A DNA stretch of 64,000 nt, taken from assembly GCF_004339765.1 (NCBI RefSeq), contig NZ_SMGO01000001.1, forward strand, positions 558,001 through 622,000, read 5' to 3'. Shown piece by piece: positions 55,231-63,130 of this stretch (position 1 is the first letter of the stretch; every line of letters begins with the position of its first letter). Made by a program: the position numbers and the translations under genes. This DNA is from Albibacterium bauzanense. GTDB taxonomy: Bacteria > Bacteroidota > Bacteroidia > Sphingobacteriales > Sphingobacteriaceae. The notes under the pieces were generated by a model. It was not told where the DNA came from, did no database searches, and saw nothing but the letters and a program-made list of their open reading frames with translations.

Positions 55231-55343
55231 CATTTCATATATTCAATAAAAAGTGTGATTTCATAATATTCAATAAATTAAATATTGGCATAGGCTTGAA
55301 AATCCCTTTTTAATTGACTTTATTTGCAAAAATCAAGTTATTA

Positions 55344-57737
55344 ATGGCAAAGAATTTACTTATCGTTGAGTCTCCAGCAAAAGCGAAAACAATAGAAGGA
55401 TATTTAGGAAAAGATTTTTTAGTTAAATCCAGTTATGGACATATACGTGATCTTGTCAAGACGGATGAAGCAATCGATACAACAAATAACTTCGCACAGA
55501 AATATGAAGTCCCAACAGATAAAAAAGCAGTTGTAAGCGAACTTAAAAAGCTAGCAAAAGCATCTGAAACTGTTTGGCTAGCTTCAGATGAGGACCGTGA
55601 AGGAGAAGCAATTTCCTGGCACCTGTTTGAAACACTAGGCTTGGACGAAAGTAAAACAAAGCGAATAGTTTTCCATGAAATAACGAAACCTGCTATTTTA
55701 AAAGCCATCGAGAACCCTCGTAAAATTGATTATAATTTGGTGAATGCGCAGCAAGCGCGACGCGTGTTAGACAGACTGGTTGGCTTTGAACTTTCTCCTG
55801 TACTTTGGAAGAAAGTAAAACCATCTCTATCAGCAGGAAGAGTACAATCAGTTGCAGTAAGATTATTAGTAGATCGCGAAAGAGAGTATAATAATTTTAT
55901 ACCGGTTGCATCTTTTAAAGTAGTTGCCATATTTTATACTGATAATAAAAAAGAACTTTTCAAAGCGGAACTGCCAAAACGTTTTCAAACAGCAGGAGAA
56001 GCAGAGAATTTTTTAAAAGACTGCATAGCTGCAGAGTTTAAAATCAAATCGTTAGAAACGAAACCCGGCAAACGCACTCCATCTGCACCCTTTACAACCT
56101 CTACACTACAACAGGAAGCTAGTAGAAAGCTAGGTTATTCTGTTGGCAGAACAATGAGTTTAGCACAACGTTTATACGAAGCAGGTTATATTTCTTACAT
56201 GCGTACAGACTCAGTGAACTTAAGTCAAACGGCTTTAGATGCTGCAGAAAAAGAAATTAAGAATGCTTATGGAGATAAATACCATAAGCCCCGTCAATAT
56301 AAAACAAAATCTTCCGGAGCTCAGGAAGCTCACGAAGCCATACGACCTACGAATTTTGCAAGCCATAGTATTAGTGGAGATTCTGCTGAACGTAAATTGT
56401 ATGAATTAATTTGGAAACGTGCTATTGCTTCGCAAATGAGTGAAGCCGAGTTTGAAAAAACAACTGCTAAAATTTCAATCTCTTCCCGATCTGAAGAATT
56501 AACTGCCAGCGGAGAAGTAATGAAGTTTGATGGATTTTTAAAAGTATATTTTGAATCAACAGACGAAGAAACAGATATTAATTTAGATGATAGCAGTGAT
56601 AATGCCCTTCTTCCACCACTGAAAACAGGGCAAATCGTTTCCTTAAAGGAAATGAACGCAACTGAACGATATAGCCGTCCGCCTTCTCGTTATACAGAAG
56701 CAAGCTTAGTGAAGAAAATGGAGGAATTAGGAATTGGTCGTCCTTCAACATATGCTCCAACTATATCAACCATACAAAACAGAGGTTATGTAGTAAAAGA
56801 AGATAGAGAAGGGAAATCACGTAATTATCAAGTAATTTCCTTGGGTAATGGTATAATTACATCAATCGTTAAATCAGAAATTACTGGTGCGGAGCGAAAC
56901 AAGCTATTTCCAACCGATATTGGAATTATGGTAAATGATTTCTTAGTGGAACATTTTGTAGATATTGTTGATTTTAATTTTACAGCAACTGTTGAAAAGG
57001 AATTCGACGATATAGCACACGGCTTAAAAGAGTGGACAACCATGTTAAAGGACTTTTACGGACCTTTTCATACCGATGTTGAGAATACCCTCGAAACTGC
57101 AGAGAGAGCTAGTCATGAGCGAGAATTAGGCACAGATGCTGCAACAGGAAAAAAGATTATTGTTCGTGTTGGCCGATTTGGCCCTTTAGTTCAAATCGGA
57201 TCTACTGAAGACGAAGAAAAGCCAAGATTTGCGAGTTTACGGCAAGGACAAATGATTGAAACCATTACTTTGGAAGAGGCCTTAGAATTATTTAGGCTTC
57301 CAAAAAATGTTGGAATGTTTGAAGGTAAAGATATGACGGTCGCAATAGGTAGATTTGGTCCTTATATTCGTCATGATGGATCTTTCTATTCTTTATCTAA
57401 GGATATTGACCCTCATAAAGTTGAGGAAGAAGAAGCTATTGAGATCATTAAAACAAAACGTCAAAAAGATATAGATAAAATTATTAAAACTTTTGATGAA
57501 GATCCTGAAGTTCGTATAGAGAATGGTCGTTGGGGCCCCTTTATCAGATATGGTAAACTTAACATAAAGATACCTAAAGATAAATTACCTGAGGACCTTA
57601 GTTTCGACGAAATTAAAAAGCTTGCAGACGAACAACCTGCAGCCAAGAAATCTTTTAAAGGTGCAAAGACCACTGCAACAGCAGCTAAGAAGAAGGCTCC
57701 AGCTAAGAAAAAAGCTGCTCCAAAAGCAAAAAAATAA
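55344..57737 (+). CDS. topA: DNA topoisomerase I
   Basis: 797 residues from ATG 55344 (MAKNLLIVESPAKAKTIEGYLG); ten upstream residues are unsupported. Toprim domain with DEDREGEAISWHL, active-site Tyr in YISYMRTDSVNLS. C-terminal part has repeats of the topo_C_Rpt type (VRVGRFGPLVQIG, VAIGRFGPYIRHDG, IENGRWGPFIRYG) and no CxxC zinc fingers at all. The last 35 residues are Lys/Ala-rich, a likely DNA-binding tail. It relaxes negative supercoils, opposing gyrase (gyrA at 60.6 kb). Confidence 0.96.
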   Translation: MAKNLLIVESPAKAKTIEGYLGKDFLVKSSYGHIRDLVKTDEAIDTTNNFAQKYEVPTDKKAVVSELKKLAKASETVWLASDEDREGEAISWHLFETLGLDESKTKRIVFHEITKPAILKAIENPRKIDYNLVNAQQARRVLDRLVGFELSPVLWKKVKPSLSAGRVQSVAVRLLVDREREYNNFIPVASFKVVAIFYTDNKKELFKAELPKRFQTAGEAENFLKDCIAAEFKIKSLETKPGKRTPSAPFTTSTLQQEASRKLGYSVGRTMSLAQRLYEAGYISYMRTDSVNLSQTALDAAEKEIKNAYGDKYHKPRQYKTKSSGAQEAHEAIRPTNFASHSISGDSAERKLYELIWKRAIASQMSEAEFEKTTAKISISSRSEELTASGEVMKFDGFLKVYFESTDEETDINLDDSSDNALLPPLKTGQIVSLKEMNATERYSRPPSRYTEASLVKKMEELGIGRPSTYAPTISTIQNRGYVVKEDREGKSRNYQVISLGNGIITSIVKSEITGAERNKLFPTDIGIMVNDFLVEHFVDIVDFNFTATVEKEFDDIAHGLKEWTTMLKDFYGPFHTDVENTLETAERASHERELGTDAATGKKIIVRVGRFGPLVQIGSTEDEEKPRFASLRQGQMIETITLEEALELFRLPKNVGMFEGKDMTVAIGRFGPYIRHDGSFYSLSKDIDPHKVEEEEAIEIIKTKRQKDIDKIIKTFDEDPEVRIENGRWGPFIRYGKLNIKIPKDKLPEDLSFDEIKKLADEQPAAKKSFKGAKTTATAAKKKAPAKKKAAPKAKK

Positions 57738-57752
57738 GCATTTAATTATTTA

Positions 57753-58157
57753 ATGAAAAGAGACTTACCAAAAAATATAGTTGAAGATATAGGAATAGCC
57801 ATTGTTCTAGAAGGCGAAACACCTGAAAGCAAATTCTGGTATGTTTATATTATTAATCGAAAAAAAGAAACAATTAATAATGTTTTAGTAAGCTCTAGAG
57901 GCTATGACTATACGGATGGTAAAGATATTCAAACTACTACATTAAGACACTTCATTGGAGATATTAATGGAAATTCCTTCGCCAAGATAGAACCTATTGA
58001 TGAAGCCCTGTTTGGATTAACCAATGAATACTGGCTTAGCTATTATATTAATGGGATCATTTACGATAAGAAATTTATCTTCTTACCCGAAAGCGTGGTT
58101 GATTCAAATTTCGTTAGAATACCTATTATTAACAAACCAGGGGTATTGATTGGTTAA
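57753..58157 (+). CDS. Conserved hypothetical protein, 134 aa
   Basis: 134 residues, no signal or membrane segment. Patterned beta strands (KFWYVYIINRKKETINNVLVSSRGYD, then SYYINGIIYDKKFIFLPESV) suggest a compact beta-sandwich or Ig-like fold. It lies 15 bases after topA and is probably co-transcribed. No recognised family; similar genes next to topA are likely in relatives. Ends at a 58-bp palindrome. Confidence 0.7.
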   Translation: MKRDLPKNIVEDIGIAIVLEGETPESKFWYVYIINRKKETINNVLVSSRGYDYTDGKDIQTTTLRHFIGDINGNSFAKIEPIDEALFGLTNEYWLSYYINGIIYDKKFIFLPESVVDSNFVRIPIINKPGVLIG

Positions 58158-58203
58158 TCAGCTACAAACTACTTAAACCTTATATTTATAATTCAAGGTT
58201 ACA

Positions 58204-58261
58204 AGATTTAATAAAACAAGAATGGCTGGAAATTTCCAGCCATTCTTGTTTTATTAAATCT
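58204..58261. terminator. Perfect 58-bp palindrome, bidirectional terminator
   Basis: Bases 58204-58232 are the exact reverse complement of 58233-58261 with no spacer. As RNA, either strand folds into a long hairpin with a GC-richer centre and flanking A and T runs. It sits between convergent genes (stops at 58157 and 58269). The length and perfection exceed what termination needs. Confidence 0.85.
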
Positions 58262-58268
58262 CTATAAA

Positions 58269-59441
58269 CTATAGTTCTTTTATTTTTGCTTCTATTTCTG
58301 CTACTTTCTCAGCATTCTCTTTGATTTGATAATAAGTCTTTAGATTTTGCCAAGCTATTGCATGTGTAGGTGCTACCTCTGTTGCTTTCTCTAAATACGG
58401 GAACGCCTCTTCAATCAATGCATTACCTTCTTTAGCACGTTCATTATATTCACTTTGCTGATTTGCAGGTAACTTACTTGCTTCCCTAAACATATTAATA
58501 CCTTGATCTAATAACATTACACCCAGATTAACATACGCATCTGCGAAGGTAGGATCTAACTCAACAGCTTTTATATAGGCTTCTTTAGCAGCTTTTTCAT
58601 CTTTATTAGAGCTTAATGCAATTCCATAATAATATTGCAATCTGGCATCGCCTGGGTTCTTCTCAATTTGTCCGGCAATACTTGAAATTAGCTTTTCTCC
58701 ATGACCTGCTTGAAGGTTTAATTCAATATTTTGAGTAGCCAACTGCTGGTTATCTGGAAATTTGACAGATCCCTCTTCAGCATATTTAATAGCAGCCACG
58801 GTATCTTTCGATATCATGTATAGACGAGAAAGATCTAGATATATTTGAGGCAAAGTAGAAAAATCTTCATGTCCTAATAACACCTTATATTTTTCTATAG
58901 CATTAGGGTAGTCTTTAGCATTAATAGCAGCTAAACCTGCATAATAGCTAAACAAAGTATCTCCTGGTAAATAATCAAGCCCTTTATTAAAAGACTGATA
59001 TGCGGAAGCATAATCCTTAGCCTCAAAGGCTGTAACGCCGGCATTTAATTCAATCTCAGCTAAAGTGCTTGAAGCCGCGGAAATATTTTGTGCTTGTTCT
59101 GCATTTCCTTCTGCTGCTTTAGCTTTTGCAATTGCATCAATAGCTTTTTGCTTGTATTCTGCTGCTGCAGGAGTCTTATCTACAAGAGCATAGTCTGCAT
59201 ATACGAGAGCTAAATAAGTCCAGGTTTCTGATAAGTTGGAAGTTTTATCATTTGAAGACGCCTTCTCTAAAGACGTTTTTGCAGCTTCCAGGTCTTTCAT
59301 TCCCAGAGCCGGTGTACCAATTTGTTTAACCTGGTTAAACTTGTTGTAGCTAGCCACACCTTTCTTTAATTCCCCGCTTTGTGCAAATGCACCGAAAGAA
59401 TAGAATAAAGCAGCAAGTAATAAGAGTGATTTAATTTTCAT
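58269..59441 (-). CDS. TPR repeat periplasmic protein
   Basis: 390 residues. A signal peptide (MKIKSLLLLAALFYSFGAFAQ, cut after AQ) is followed by tetratricopeptide repeats, for example YQSFNKGLDYLPGDTLFSYYAGLAAINAKDYPNAIEKYK and QYYYGIALSSNKDEKAAKEAYIKAVELDPTFADAYVNLGVML. Exported; probably a binding scaffold in the periplasm. Third gene of the gyrA operon, 6 bases after the other TPR protein. Confidence 0.88.
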   Translation of the reverse strand: MKIKSLLLLAALFYSFGAFAQSGELKKGVASYNKFNQVKQIGTPALGMKDLEAAKTSLEKASSNDKTSNLSETWTYLALVYADYALVDKTPAAAEYKQKAIDAIAKAKAAEGNAEQAQNISAASSTLAEIELNAGVTAFEAKDYASAYQSFNKGLDYLPGDTLFSYYAGLAAINAKDYPNAIEKYKVLLGHEDFSTLPQIYLDLSRLYMISKDTVAAIKYAEEGSVKFPDNQQLATQNIELNLQAGHGEKLISSIAGQIEKNPGDARLQYYYGIALSSNKDEKAAKEAYIKAVELDPTFADAYVNLGVMLLDQGINMFREASKLPANQQSEYNERAKEGNALIEEAFPYLEKATEVAPTHAIAWQNLKTYYQIKENAEKVAEIEAKIKEL

Positions 59442-59447
59442 TTTGGT

Positions 59448-60572
59448 TTAATTGAATGTATTTTGATTTAATTGATTTTTTACTCGCTCATATTGTATTA
59501 TATCAGCCGACTTCTCATATAATACTGCTAGTGACTTCAATGCATTTTCAGAATTAGGATCAATTTCGTTCGCTTTCAGTAAATATTTTTCTGCTAATTC
59601 AAAGTTTTCAACGTTTGTTGTATCGCTGATATAGTCCTTTAAAAAAAGTAATCCTAGTTCATAATTCCCATCATAGTTATTGTCATCTAGCTTTATAACA
59701 GTTTCATAATACTGCGCAGCTAATTTACGATTTCCTATAATTTCATAAGCATAGCCAGCTAAATAATTTAACTTTATATTTTCCGGATCTAACTCATGTG
59801 CTACACTGATTAAAGGGATAACAGCATCATATGAACCATTATCTGCATAGATATTGATTGCCTCGAATAGAATATCCTTATTGTTCGGAAAAACATCCAA
59901 ACCATCTAACAATGTATTTAATTGTTCAGTGGGGTTACCCGCTTTTGAATATAGATCAGCTAGTATTAAGACATTCTCAGGACTCAATTTGTTCAGACTT
60001 TCCAGATAGTCTTTATAATAATTAACTGCTTCTTCGGGCTTATCAAGACGCGAGCTTAAGACTGATAAATTATGTTTAACATTAATTCCACTTTTACTAA
60101 AAGCATCTACTTCTTTGAAGTTATTATACGCTTCCTCTAGTTTGTTATTATTAAGAGCTCTTTTTCCTAAGATTAAATAGGCATTAGATAACTTTCTGTG
60201 AATATAAATTATCTGGGCCTCGTTCTCATAGTTTAGCTGATTATCATTCAACCTTGATAATGCGAATTTAGCCTCCTCAATCGGATCTTTTGTATACTTT
60301 AATTTCCTGTTCGAATCAGCAACAGCCAAACTACTATAAACTAAGGCACGTAAAAGATTATTCTTATAAGCTATGGAGTCTCTATGATCTTTATATGCAT
60401 TATCAGAAAACTTCCTTGCTTTTTCCAGGACTGTAAAATCTCCTGATTTGGTATACATCGCAAAATTATTGCGTCCTTCTTTTTCGTCCGATTGTGCGTA
60501 GACCACTCCCTGACCAATAAAAAGTAATAGGAAAATTAGAAAGAATCGACTTTTTAATTTAAACAATAACAT
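59448..60572 (-). CDS. TPR repeat periplasmic protein
   Basis: 374 residues. Signal peptide FFLIFLLLFIGQGVVYAQ (cut after AQ), then irregular TPR units (EAYNNFKEVDAF, KPEEAVNYYKDYLESL, YAYEIIGNRKLAAQYYETVIKLDDNNYDGNYELGLLFL). Exported. It begins 5 bases after the gyrA stop; no functional link between gyrase and an exported scaffold is known, so the order may be for expression only. Confidence 0.88.
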   Translation of the reverse strand: MLLFKLKSRFFLIFLLLFIGQGVVYAQSDEKEGRNNFAMYTKSGDFTVLEKARKFSDNAYKDHRDSIAYKNNLLRALVYSSLAVADSNRKLKYTKDPIEEAKFALSRLNDNQLNYENEAQIIYIHRKLSNAYLILGKRALNNNKLEEAYNNFKEVDAFSKSGINVKHNLSVLSSRLDKPEEAVNYYKDYLESLNKLSPENVLILADLYSKAGNPTEQLNTLLDGLDVFPNNKDILFEAINIYADNGSYDAVIPLISVAHELDPENIKLNYLAGYAYEIIGNRKLAAQYYETVIKLDDNNYDGNYELGLLFLKDYISDTTNVENFELAEKYLLKANEIDPNSENALKSLAVLYEKSADIIQYERVKNQLNQNTFN

Positions 60573-60577
60573 ACTAA

Positions 60578-63130
60578 TTAATCATTTTCAATTATACTTG
60601 AATCATCATTTAATCCATTTTCATCAATCTGTGGATTATCTTCTACATCTTCATCTTCTTCCCGCACTACCTTAGCAACCGATGCAATTTGATCGTCTTT
60701 CTTCAAATTAATCAACTTAACTCCCTGAGTAGCACGTCCCATTACACGAAGTTCGCTTACTGAAATACGGATAACAATGCTCGATTTATTAATGATCATC
60801 AAATCATCCTGGTCAGTAACATTCTTTATTGCAATTAGGTCACCAGTTTTTTCAGTTATACTAATCGTCTTTACACCTTTACCCCCGCGGTTCGTGATGC
60901 GATAATCTTCTAACTCAGTACGTTTTCCATAACCATTTTCAGATACAACCAAAATGGTAGTTTCAGGATCATTCACACTAACCATACCAACTACTTCGTC
61001 ATTTTCATGAGCTAAAGTAATTCCACGTACACCAGTAGCTGTTCTTCCCATAGGACGAACAGTTGATTCATTAAAACGGATTGCTCTGCCTGAACGCAAT
61101 GCAATTACTATTTCACTTTCACCACTAGTTAAGTTAGCTTCTAATAATTGATCGCCTTCATTGATATTAATTGCATTAATTCCATTTGCACGAGGACGAG
61201 AATATGCTTCTAAAGAGGTTTTCTTTATTGTCCCCTTCTTTGTACACATAATAATGAAGTTATTTTCCAGATACTCCTGATCTTTCAAATTCTTCACCTT
61301 TATATAGGCTTTAACCTTTTCATCTTTCGGAATATTAATAATATTCTGCAAGGCTCTACCTCTTGAAACTCTTGATCCTTCAGGAATTTCAAAGGCTCTT
61401 AGCCAGAAGCAACGTCCTGCTTCTGTAAAGAACAATAAATAATTATGAGCAGTGGCAGAGATAATATGTTCTGTAAAATCACTGTCTTTGGTATTCGAAC
61501 CTAAAGCACCTTTTCCACCTCTACCTTGTGTACGATATTCTGTAAGAGGTGTTCTTTTAACATATCCATCATGTGATATGGTAATAACAATTTCCTCGTC
61601 ATCAATAAAGTCCTCCATACTCATATCTCCCGCAGAATGAACAATTTTAGAACGTCGTTCATCACCATACTTTTCTTTAACCTCCAGAAGTTCGTCTTTG
61701 ATAATCTGCATACGAAGACCTTCATCAGCAAGAATAGACTTCAAGTATTCAATGGTTTTCATTAACTCAGCATACTCTTCTTTAATCTTATCGCGCTCTA
61801 ATCCTGTTAAACGACGAAGAGTCATATCCAGAATAGCCCTAGATTGAATATCTGACAAACCAAATTTCTCCATTAAACCAGTACGTGCCTCTTCAGGTGT
61901 ATTGGATGCACGGATTAATTTAATAACCTCTTCAATATGATCTAATGCAATTAATAAACCTTCAAGAATATGTGCACGTTTTTCGGCCTCAGACAATTCA
62001 AACTTCGTCCGGCGAATAATTACTTCATGTCTATGTTCAACGAAATAGTGAATTAAATCCTTTAGATTTAACATGACTGGCCTTCCATTGACCAATGCAA
62101 TGTTATTCACACTAAAAGAGGTTTGTAAAGCAGTGTACTTAAACAAATTGTTTAACACCACAGAAGCATTAGCATCTCGTTTAATATCATAAACAATTCG
62201 CATACCATCTCTATCTGATTCATCACGAATTGAAGAGATACCTTCTATCTTTTTCTCATTAACTAATTCAGCTGTACGCTCAATCATGGTCGCCTTATTC
62301 ACTTGATAAGGGATTTCGGTTACAATAATTTGCTCCCGATCGCTTTTGGTAACTTCTATCTCAGCTTTGGCACGCATAATTACGCTACCACGTCCTGTCT
62401 CAAAAGCACTCTGAATCCCTGAATAACCATAAATGATACCTCCTGTAGGGAAGTCAGGTCCTTTAATATGCTGCATTAAATCAGCTATTGTAATATCACG
62501 ATTATCAATATAAGCTATCGTTCCATCAATCACTTCTGATAGATTATGAGGAGCCATATTTGTGGCCATACCTACAGCAATTCCAGACGCTCCGTTGACT
62601 AATAAATTAGGTATACGAGTTGGCAGAACCGTTGGCTCATGCAATGTATCATCAAAATTCAATTGGAAATCAACGGTGTCTTTTGTAATATCGCCCAACA
62701 TATCTTCAGCGATCTTCTTCAACCGTGCTTCTGTATAACGCATTGCTGCAGGAGAGTCTCCATCAACAGATCCAAAGTTACCCTGTCCATCAACTAAAAC
62801 GTAGCGCATGCTCCATTCCTGAGCCATTCTCACCATGGTACCATATACAGAAGAGTCTCCGTGTGGATGATATTTACCTAAAACATCCCCAACTATACGT
62901 GCTGATTTTTTATGTGGCTTGCTGCTTGTGACACCCAAATCTAACATACCATATAAAACCCGCCTGTGCACTGGTTTTAACCCATCGCGTACATCAGGTA
63001 ATGCCCGTGAAACGATAACCGACATTGAATAATCAATGTACGATGATTTCATTTCATCTTCAATATTAATCTGGATTATACGATCGTCAGCTGGTATTAA
63101 ATTGTTTTCATTTTCTGTTTCGTCAGCCAT
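60578..63130 (-). CDS. gyrA: DNA gyrase subunit A
   Basis: 850 residues. N-terminal winged-helix with catalytic Y132 (AAMRYTEAR) and the quinolone-determining region [27 protein letters not shown]. The GyrA box QGRGGKG is near residue 537 at the start of the C-terminal beta-pinwheel. The Ser matching E. coli S83 (S93) is present; the site matching D87 is Gly (G97). The acidic C-terminal tail is rich in Asp, Glu and Asn. Introduces negative supercoils with GyrB, which is not in this window. Confidence 0.97.

Follow-up and report, generated by a model that had tools for sequence, protein, structure and literature searches.

A 58-bp perfect palindrome between convergent genes of Albibacterium bauzanense as a probable bidirectional intrinsic terminator

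Bidirectional Rho-independent terminators between convergent genes were reportedly described by Carlomagno et al. in 1985. In the passages of the TransTermHP paper drawn on here, its authors describe stem bases that are formed by the hybridised tails of such terminators (PMC1852404). AT-rich 4A/4T stem-loops of low-GC Firmicutes, in which the 3' U tract pairs with the 5' A-rich tract, are terminator-like and were suggested to be bidirectional terminators, according to the portion of that work cited here (PMC1590033). For E. coli, the cited part of a survey of perfect inverted repeats with cruciform-forming potential indicates that most of those at gene ends belong to intrinsic terminators, and that arms of at least 13 bp with a spacer of at most 8 are scarce (PMC6060812).

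The palindrome analysed here resembles these systems in having, between convergent stop codons, a hairpin with an A-rich tract on one side and a T-rich tract on the other, which can be read from either strand. In contrast to the bidirectional terminators of the cited TransTermHP passages, its stem continues in perfect pairing for 5 bp beyond the 8-nt tails, has no spacer and has 29-bp arms. The tail-stem rule given there requires five or more consecutive A and would not strictly apply, given that the longest A run of this stem is four (PMC1852404). The host belongs to the Sphingobacteriaceae rather than to the low-GC Firmicutes of the 4A/4T stem-loops (PMC1590033), and its genome, unlike that of E. 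coli as described in the cited part of the survey (PMC6060812), holds many arms of 20-30 bp.

Structure of the site and its gene setting

Positions 58204-58261 of the window (the whole 64,000-nt stretch of DNA that was analysed) form an exact 58-bp palindrome of two 29-base arms, with no spacer and no mismatches, just as the first-pass annotation had described it. This is the longest of six perfect inverted repeats in the window (arm at least 10, loop at most 12). The next longest has an arm of 12 bases, and the longest arm per window after mononucleotide shuffling was 9-11 (20 shuffles). The RNA fold of 58180-58285 has an energy of -40.8 kcal/mol (z -11.3), which none of 200 dinucleotide shuffles equalled. 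The palindrome is real and far beyond chance.

On the forward strand, topA (55314-57737; DNA topoisomerase I, with Pfam Topoisom_bac and Toprim) is followed by a gene for a 134-aa protein (57753-58157) that has no Pfam family and is 72% identical in the sister species. The opposing run on the reverse strand consists of a gyrA-like gene (60578-63130; DNA gyrase/topoisomerase IV A subunit, 850 aa, with Pfam DNA_topoisoIV and six DNA_gyraseA_C stretches), a gene for a TPR protein of 374 aa (59448-60572) and a gene for another of 390 aa (58269-59441). The palindrome lies 46 nt from the stop codon of the 134-aa gene and 7 nt from that of the 390-aa TPR gene, on both sides as close as expected of an intrinsic terminator. 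Across 55314-63130, topA and a gyrA-like gene converge on one putative terminator, and in the 30 loci read topA lies within 1.5 kb only in the two loci of the genus.

The palindrome has the parts of an intrinsic terminator on each strand. The core (58217-58248; locus row L003), which is identical on either strand, has 14 pairs, seven of them G-C, with AATT as a 4-nt loop. Transcripts of the forward strand, from the topA side, would carry the T-rich tail TTTTATTA (58249-58256). Transcripts of the reverse strand, from the TPR and gyrA-like side, would carry the tail at 58209-58216, which pairs with the first, and by symmetry each tail has six T in eight positions. In RNA from either strand, the core CAAGAATGGCTGG/CCAGCCATTCTTG would fold as a hairpin just before the U-rich tail, after which the polymerase would release. 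As the site has to serve transcripts from both sides, what one strand reads as a T-tail is an A-tract on its complement; the tails therefore pair, and the 14-pair hairpin would be lengthened to a 27-pair RNA stem (29-bp arms in DNA). A simple terminator scan missed the site, apparently because pairing of the stem extends across the tails.

Based on this arrangement of stem and tails on both strands between convergent genes, the palindrome is very probably a bidirectional intrinsic terminator common to a topA-134-aa and a gyrA-like-TPR-TPR transcription unit. Both the transcription units and actual termination at the site are what we infer from the sequence. Two features are evidence against the terminator reading, namely that the outermost 5 bp are more than a terminator needs and that only six of the eight tail positions are T. 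We suspect that these outer 5 bp arose when the stem was formed or repaired by template switching, or by chance, and have no separate function. The terminator reading, which the first-pass annotation had listed among several, is supported in that the site is terminator-like on both strands.

Long perfect repeats across this genome and others

Repeats were counted in 864 kb of the 3.08-Mb genome (28%, window included), with genes taken as long open frames rather than curated calls. This sample holds 27 perfect repeats with arms of at least 16 bp and 20 with arms of at least 20 bp (loop at most 12). Three of them reach arms of 29-30 bp: the palindrome at 58204-58261, L177 and L041. Fifteen of the 20 longer repeats are terminator-like on both strands and five on neither; these counts, and those of perfection below, include L041, a coding repeat that is one of the five. 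Among gaps of 16-399 bp in the sample, an arm of at least 20 bp occurs in 15 of 65 convergent gaps, 2 of 250 tandem gaps and none of 92 divergent gaps. L177:5636-5695 is a 60-bp perfect spacerless palindrome (30-bp arm) with convergent genes on either side; it is longer than the 58-bp palindrome and shares with it the outer run ATAAAACAAG. A spacerless palindrome at L044:3275-3324 has a 25-bp arm and no terminator tails, and open frames of 100 aa or longer are all more than 300 nt away.

The impression that the 58-bp palindrome is exceptional is not supported by this comparison: where convergent genes end in the sampled part of the genome, palindromes that are long and perfect are common. Most likely the locus itself is ordinary, and a long, perfectly paired type of stop is used at many gene ends here. 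This population view points to long perfect palindromes as a routine gene-end signal in this genome, although sbcD is present, and is a caution against taking a long palindrome for a special regulatory site. With such a set of sites, the origin of terminator hairpins and the upkeep of their perfect pairing could be put to the test.

A different function at the level of RNA would make the element a stabiliser or RNase III processing site at 3' ends, or a small RNA, with termination secondary. A stem of 27 pairs has sufficient length for RNase III. RNA stability can be altered by terminator mutations, as stated in the cited part of the work on 4A/4T stem-loops (PMC1590033). However, the U-tails and the bias towards convergent gaps point to termination, and an Rfam search of the site gave no family at gathering score (16 matches listed, all below it). 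We consider this function quite unlikely to be the primary one.

Repeats with arms of at least 20 bp were also found elsewhere, with six in 400 kb of the sister species (G001) and four in 200 kb of G057. There was one in G008 and none in G017 or G051 (200 kb each), and none in 100 kb of E. coli K-12. The class is frequent in the genus, yet not confined to it. Among stems of at least 20 bp, the perfect ones in this genome number 20 of 21 under a strict mismatch penalty, a choice that flatters the result, and 20 of 27 under a laxer one; in the sister species they number 6 of 6 and 5 of 9. In other genera, the perfect stems under the strict penalty were 4 of 7 in G057 and 1 of 3 in G017, G051 and G008 together, so that a surplus of perfect stems is less clear than in this genus.

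Long perfect palindromes had been taken in the first-pass annotation to be normally unstable in replication, a premise that is not supported here. A match to sbcD over the cut-off is present in five of six genomes, including this one (G008 has a weak match only), and loss of SbcCD as a permissive factor for long palindromes was dropped on account of these matches. A recA mutant of E. coli grew unimpeded with an 85-bp interrupted palindrome, according to the cited part of that study (PMC3315005). By this yardstick a 58-bp palindrome would need no special protection, in a comparison that is made across species and with a palindrome that bears a spacer, which the 58-bp one lacks. A literature search for inviability of E. 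coli palindromes at 150 bp with a cruciform found nothing.

The locus in relatives

The TPR gene was matched in 56 of 61 family genomes, and the best 30 loci were read. In 23 of these a terminator lies within 150 nt after the stop codon of the related TPR gene, against a total of 0.02 expected from mononucleotide shuffles, and seven have none under the criteria applied. In genome_contigs, no relative of the TPR protein was confirmed among 46 pattern stretches. The sister species keeps the flanking gene order. At the same position it has a hairpin with an unrelated stem, with a 15-bp perfect arm and a G-T pair nearer the loop, which is terminator-like on the TPR side only; the gap of this only sister species is not alignable by eye at the palindrome.

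It had been proposed that selection or recent origin may maintain the palindrome, and the absence of the 58-bp stem from the same position in the sister species supports this. The same annotation held that relatives keeping only a short imperfect hairpin would count against its reading. This is largely what the single sister species has, with a 15-bp arm and a G-T pair.

The palindrome could instead act as DNA, as a cruciform or a site bound by protein, through which the supercoiling between topA and the gyrA-like gene would be sensed or set, a role that the first-pass annotation had raised on account of the neighbouring topA. The symmetry is perfect, the centre is AT-rich and two topoisomerase genes converge on the palindrome. 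However, topA lies within 1.5 kb of the TPR gene in just 2 of the 30 family loci, those of this genome and the sister species (in L023 and L034 the downstream sequence is shorter than 1.5 kb), versus 23 of 30 with a terminator after the TPR gene. Palindrome and topA neighbourhood are not conserved together. The stem is single copy, lacks conservation in the sister species, and by inspection shares no GC core with the other long palindromes of the class. We found nothing tying the palindrome to topoisomerase control, and regard such a role as very unlikely.

A strict palindrome in an intergenic gap would also be compatible with a palindromic element of the REP/BIME kind, mobile or repeated, or with the scar that an element left. 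In addition, L077 (Cyclobacteriaceae), which has the same 12-bp stem, has four more stem bases alike (AAAC/GTTT). REP/BIME elements are expected in many copies, but a whole-genome search with a 117-base query across the palindrome matched only itself and its own reverse complement, so the copies elsewhere in the genome that the first-pass annotation had proposed looking for are absent. Among 101 family genomes, only this one and G045 have the 12-bp stem (loop 0-12), which is also present in five genome_contigs stretches from different groups. The loops of these differ, as do most of the flanks, which fits chance reuse of the stem in terminators; in one of the five, from Solitalea agri, the stem has flanks as in G045 (30-nt flanks). 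We consider an element of this kind highly improbable. Perfect palindromes can disturb assembly in general, but an assembly or base-calling artefact, which had been named as a way for the first interpretation to fail, is barely credible: no evidence for one was found, both flanks lie within one 1.3-Mb contig, the same gene order in the sister species makes a misjoin unlikely, and palindromes of a similar kind are present at other places in this genome as well as in the sister species.

Turnover of stems and template switching

Four of the other 19 long-arm sites were traced in the sister species, each by one flanking gene. At two of the four both flanking genes are kept, and the stem there is again long and perfect but differs in its core: the arm in the sister species is 28 bp in L185 against 24 in L045, and 18 bp in L182 against 30 in L177. 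In the bases read of the other two there is no perfect arm of at least 9. For L184, the counterpart of L174, the partner gene did not turn up in the vicinity; the match at L187, the counterpart of L162, is 56% identical and one of nine, and its orthology is doubtful. In all three slots with both flanks kept, the focal one included, the sister species has a perfect arm of 15-28 bp in other sequence, and three is few.

Hairpins made by template switching acquire perfect stems in one event (PMC8794818), and quasipalindrome correction makes stems perfect (PMC7202029), according to the cited parts of these studies. The perfection of the stems fits both processes, as does the finding that long stems in the genus are more often perfect than mismatched. 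Near-perfect stems of 20-30 bp that are favoured in the genus, with sequence turnover between species, would fit replication template switching. The 58-bp palindrome is probably long because the tails pair and because the stem was perfected, perhaps by templated mutation.

From the perspective of the genus as a whole, we tentatively suggest, as a possibility rather than as the probable account, that terminators of convergent genes are repeatedly rewritten as long flawless palindromes. Template switching would make or repair whole stems in one step, so that the stem sequence would be replaced completely between sister species while the slot retains long perfect pairing; this would amount to a drive towards palindrome perfection across the genome, coupled to termination. 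Strong selection on pairing is an alternative cause of flawless stems, and the focal locus has no direct trace of template switching.

Beside the hairpin that the sister species has at the focal position (L072:12551-12590, the same place as L004:1334-1373), an inverted copy of 15 bases from the end of the 134-aa gene lies 10 nt downstream of them, with no T tail. This inverted copy looks like a template-switch product.

The 29-bp arm of L041 was also considered as a product of template switching at gene ends. This was rejected, because the repeat is C-terminal coding sequence that two paralogous restriction-modification genes have in common, and it does not resemble a terminator. L041:16162-19957 (about 406.2-410.0 kb of contig C1 in this genome, G000) holds a gene for an Eco57I-type restriction-modification protein convergent with a separate, partial copy of the TaqI_C specificity region. 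The paralogues overlap at their near-identical C-terminal ends (LTKEEIAFIExQ), which gives the inverted repeat, and the pair looks like an invertible specificity cassette. Similar convergent paralogous matches occur in G014, G025 and G015, and at both ends of contig C1 of the sister species.
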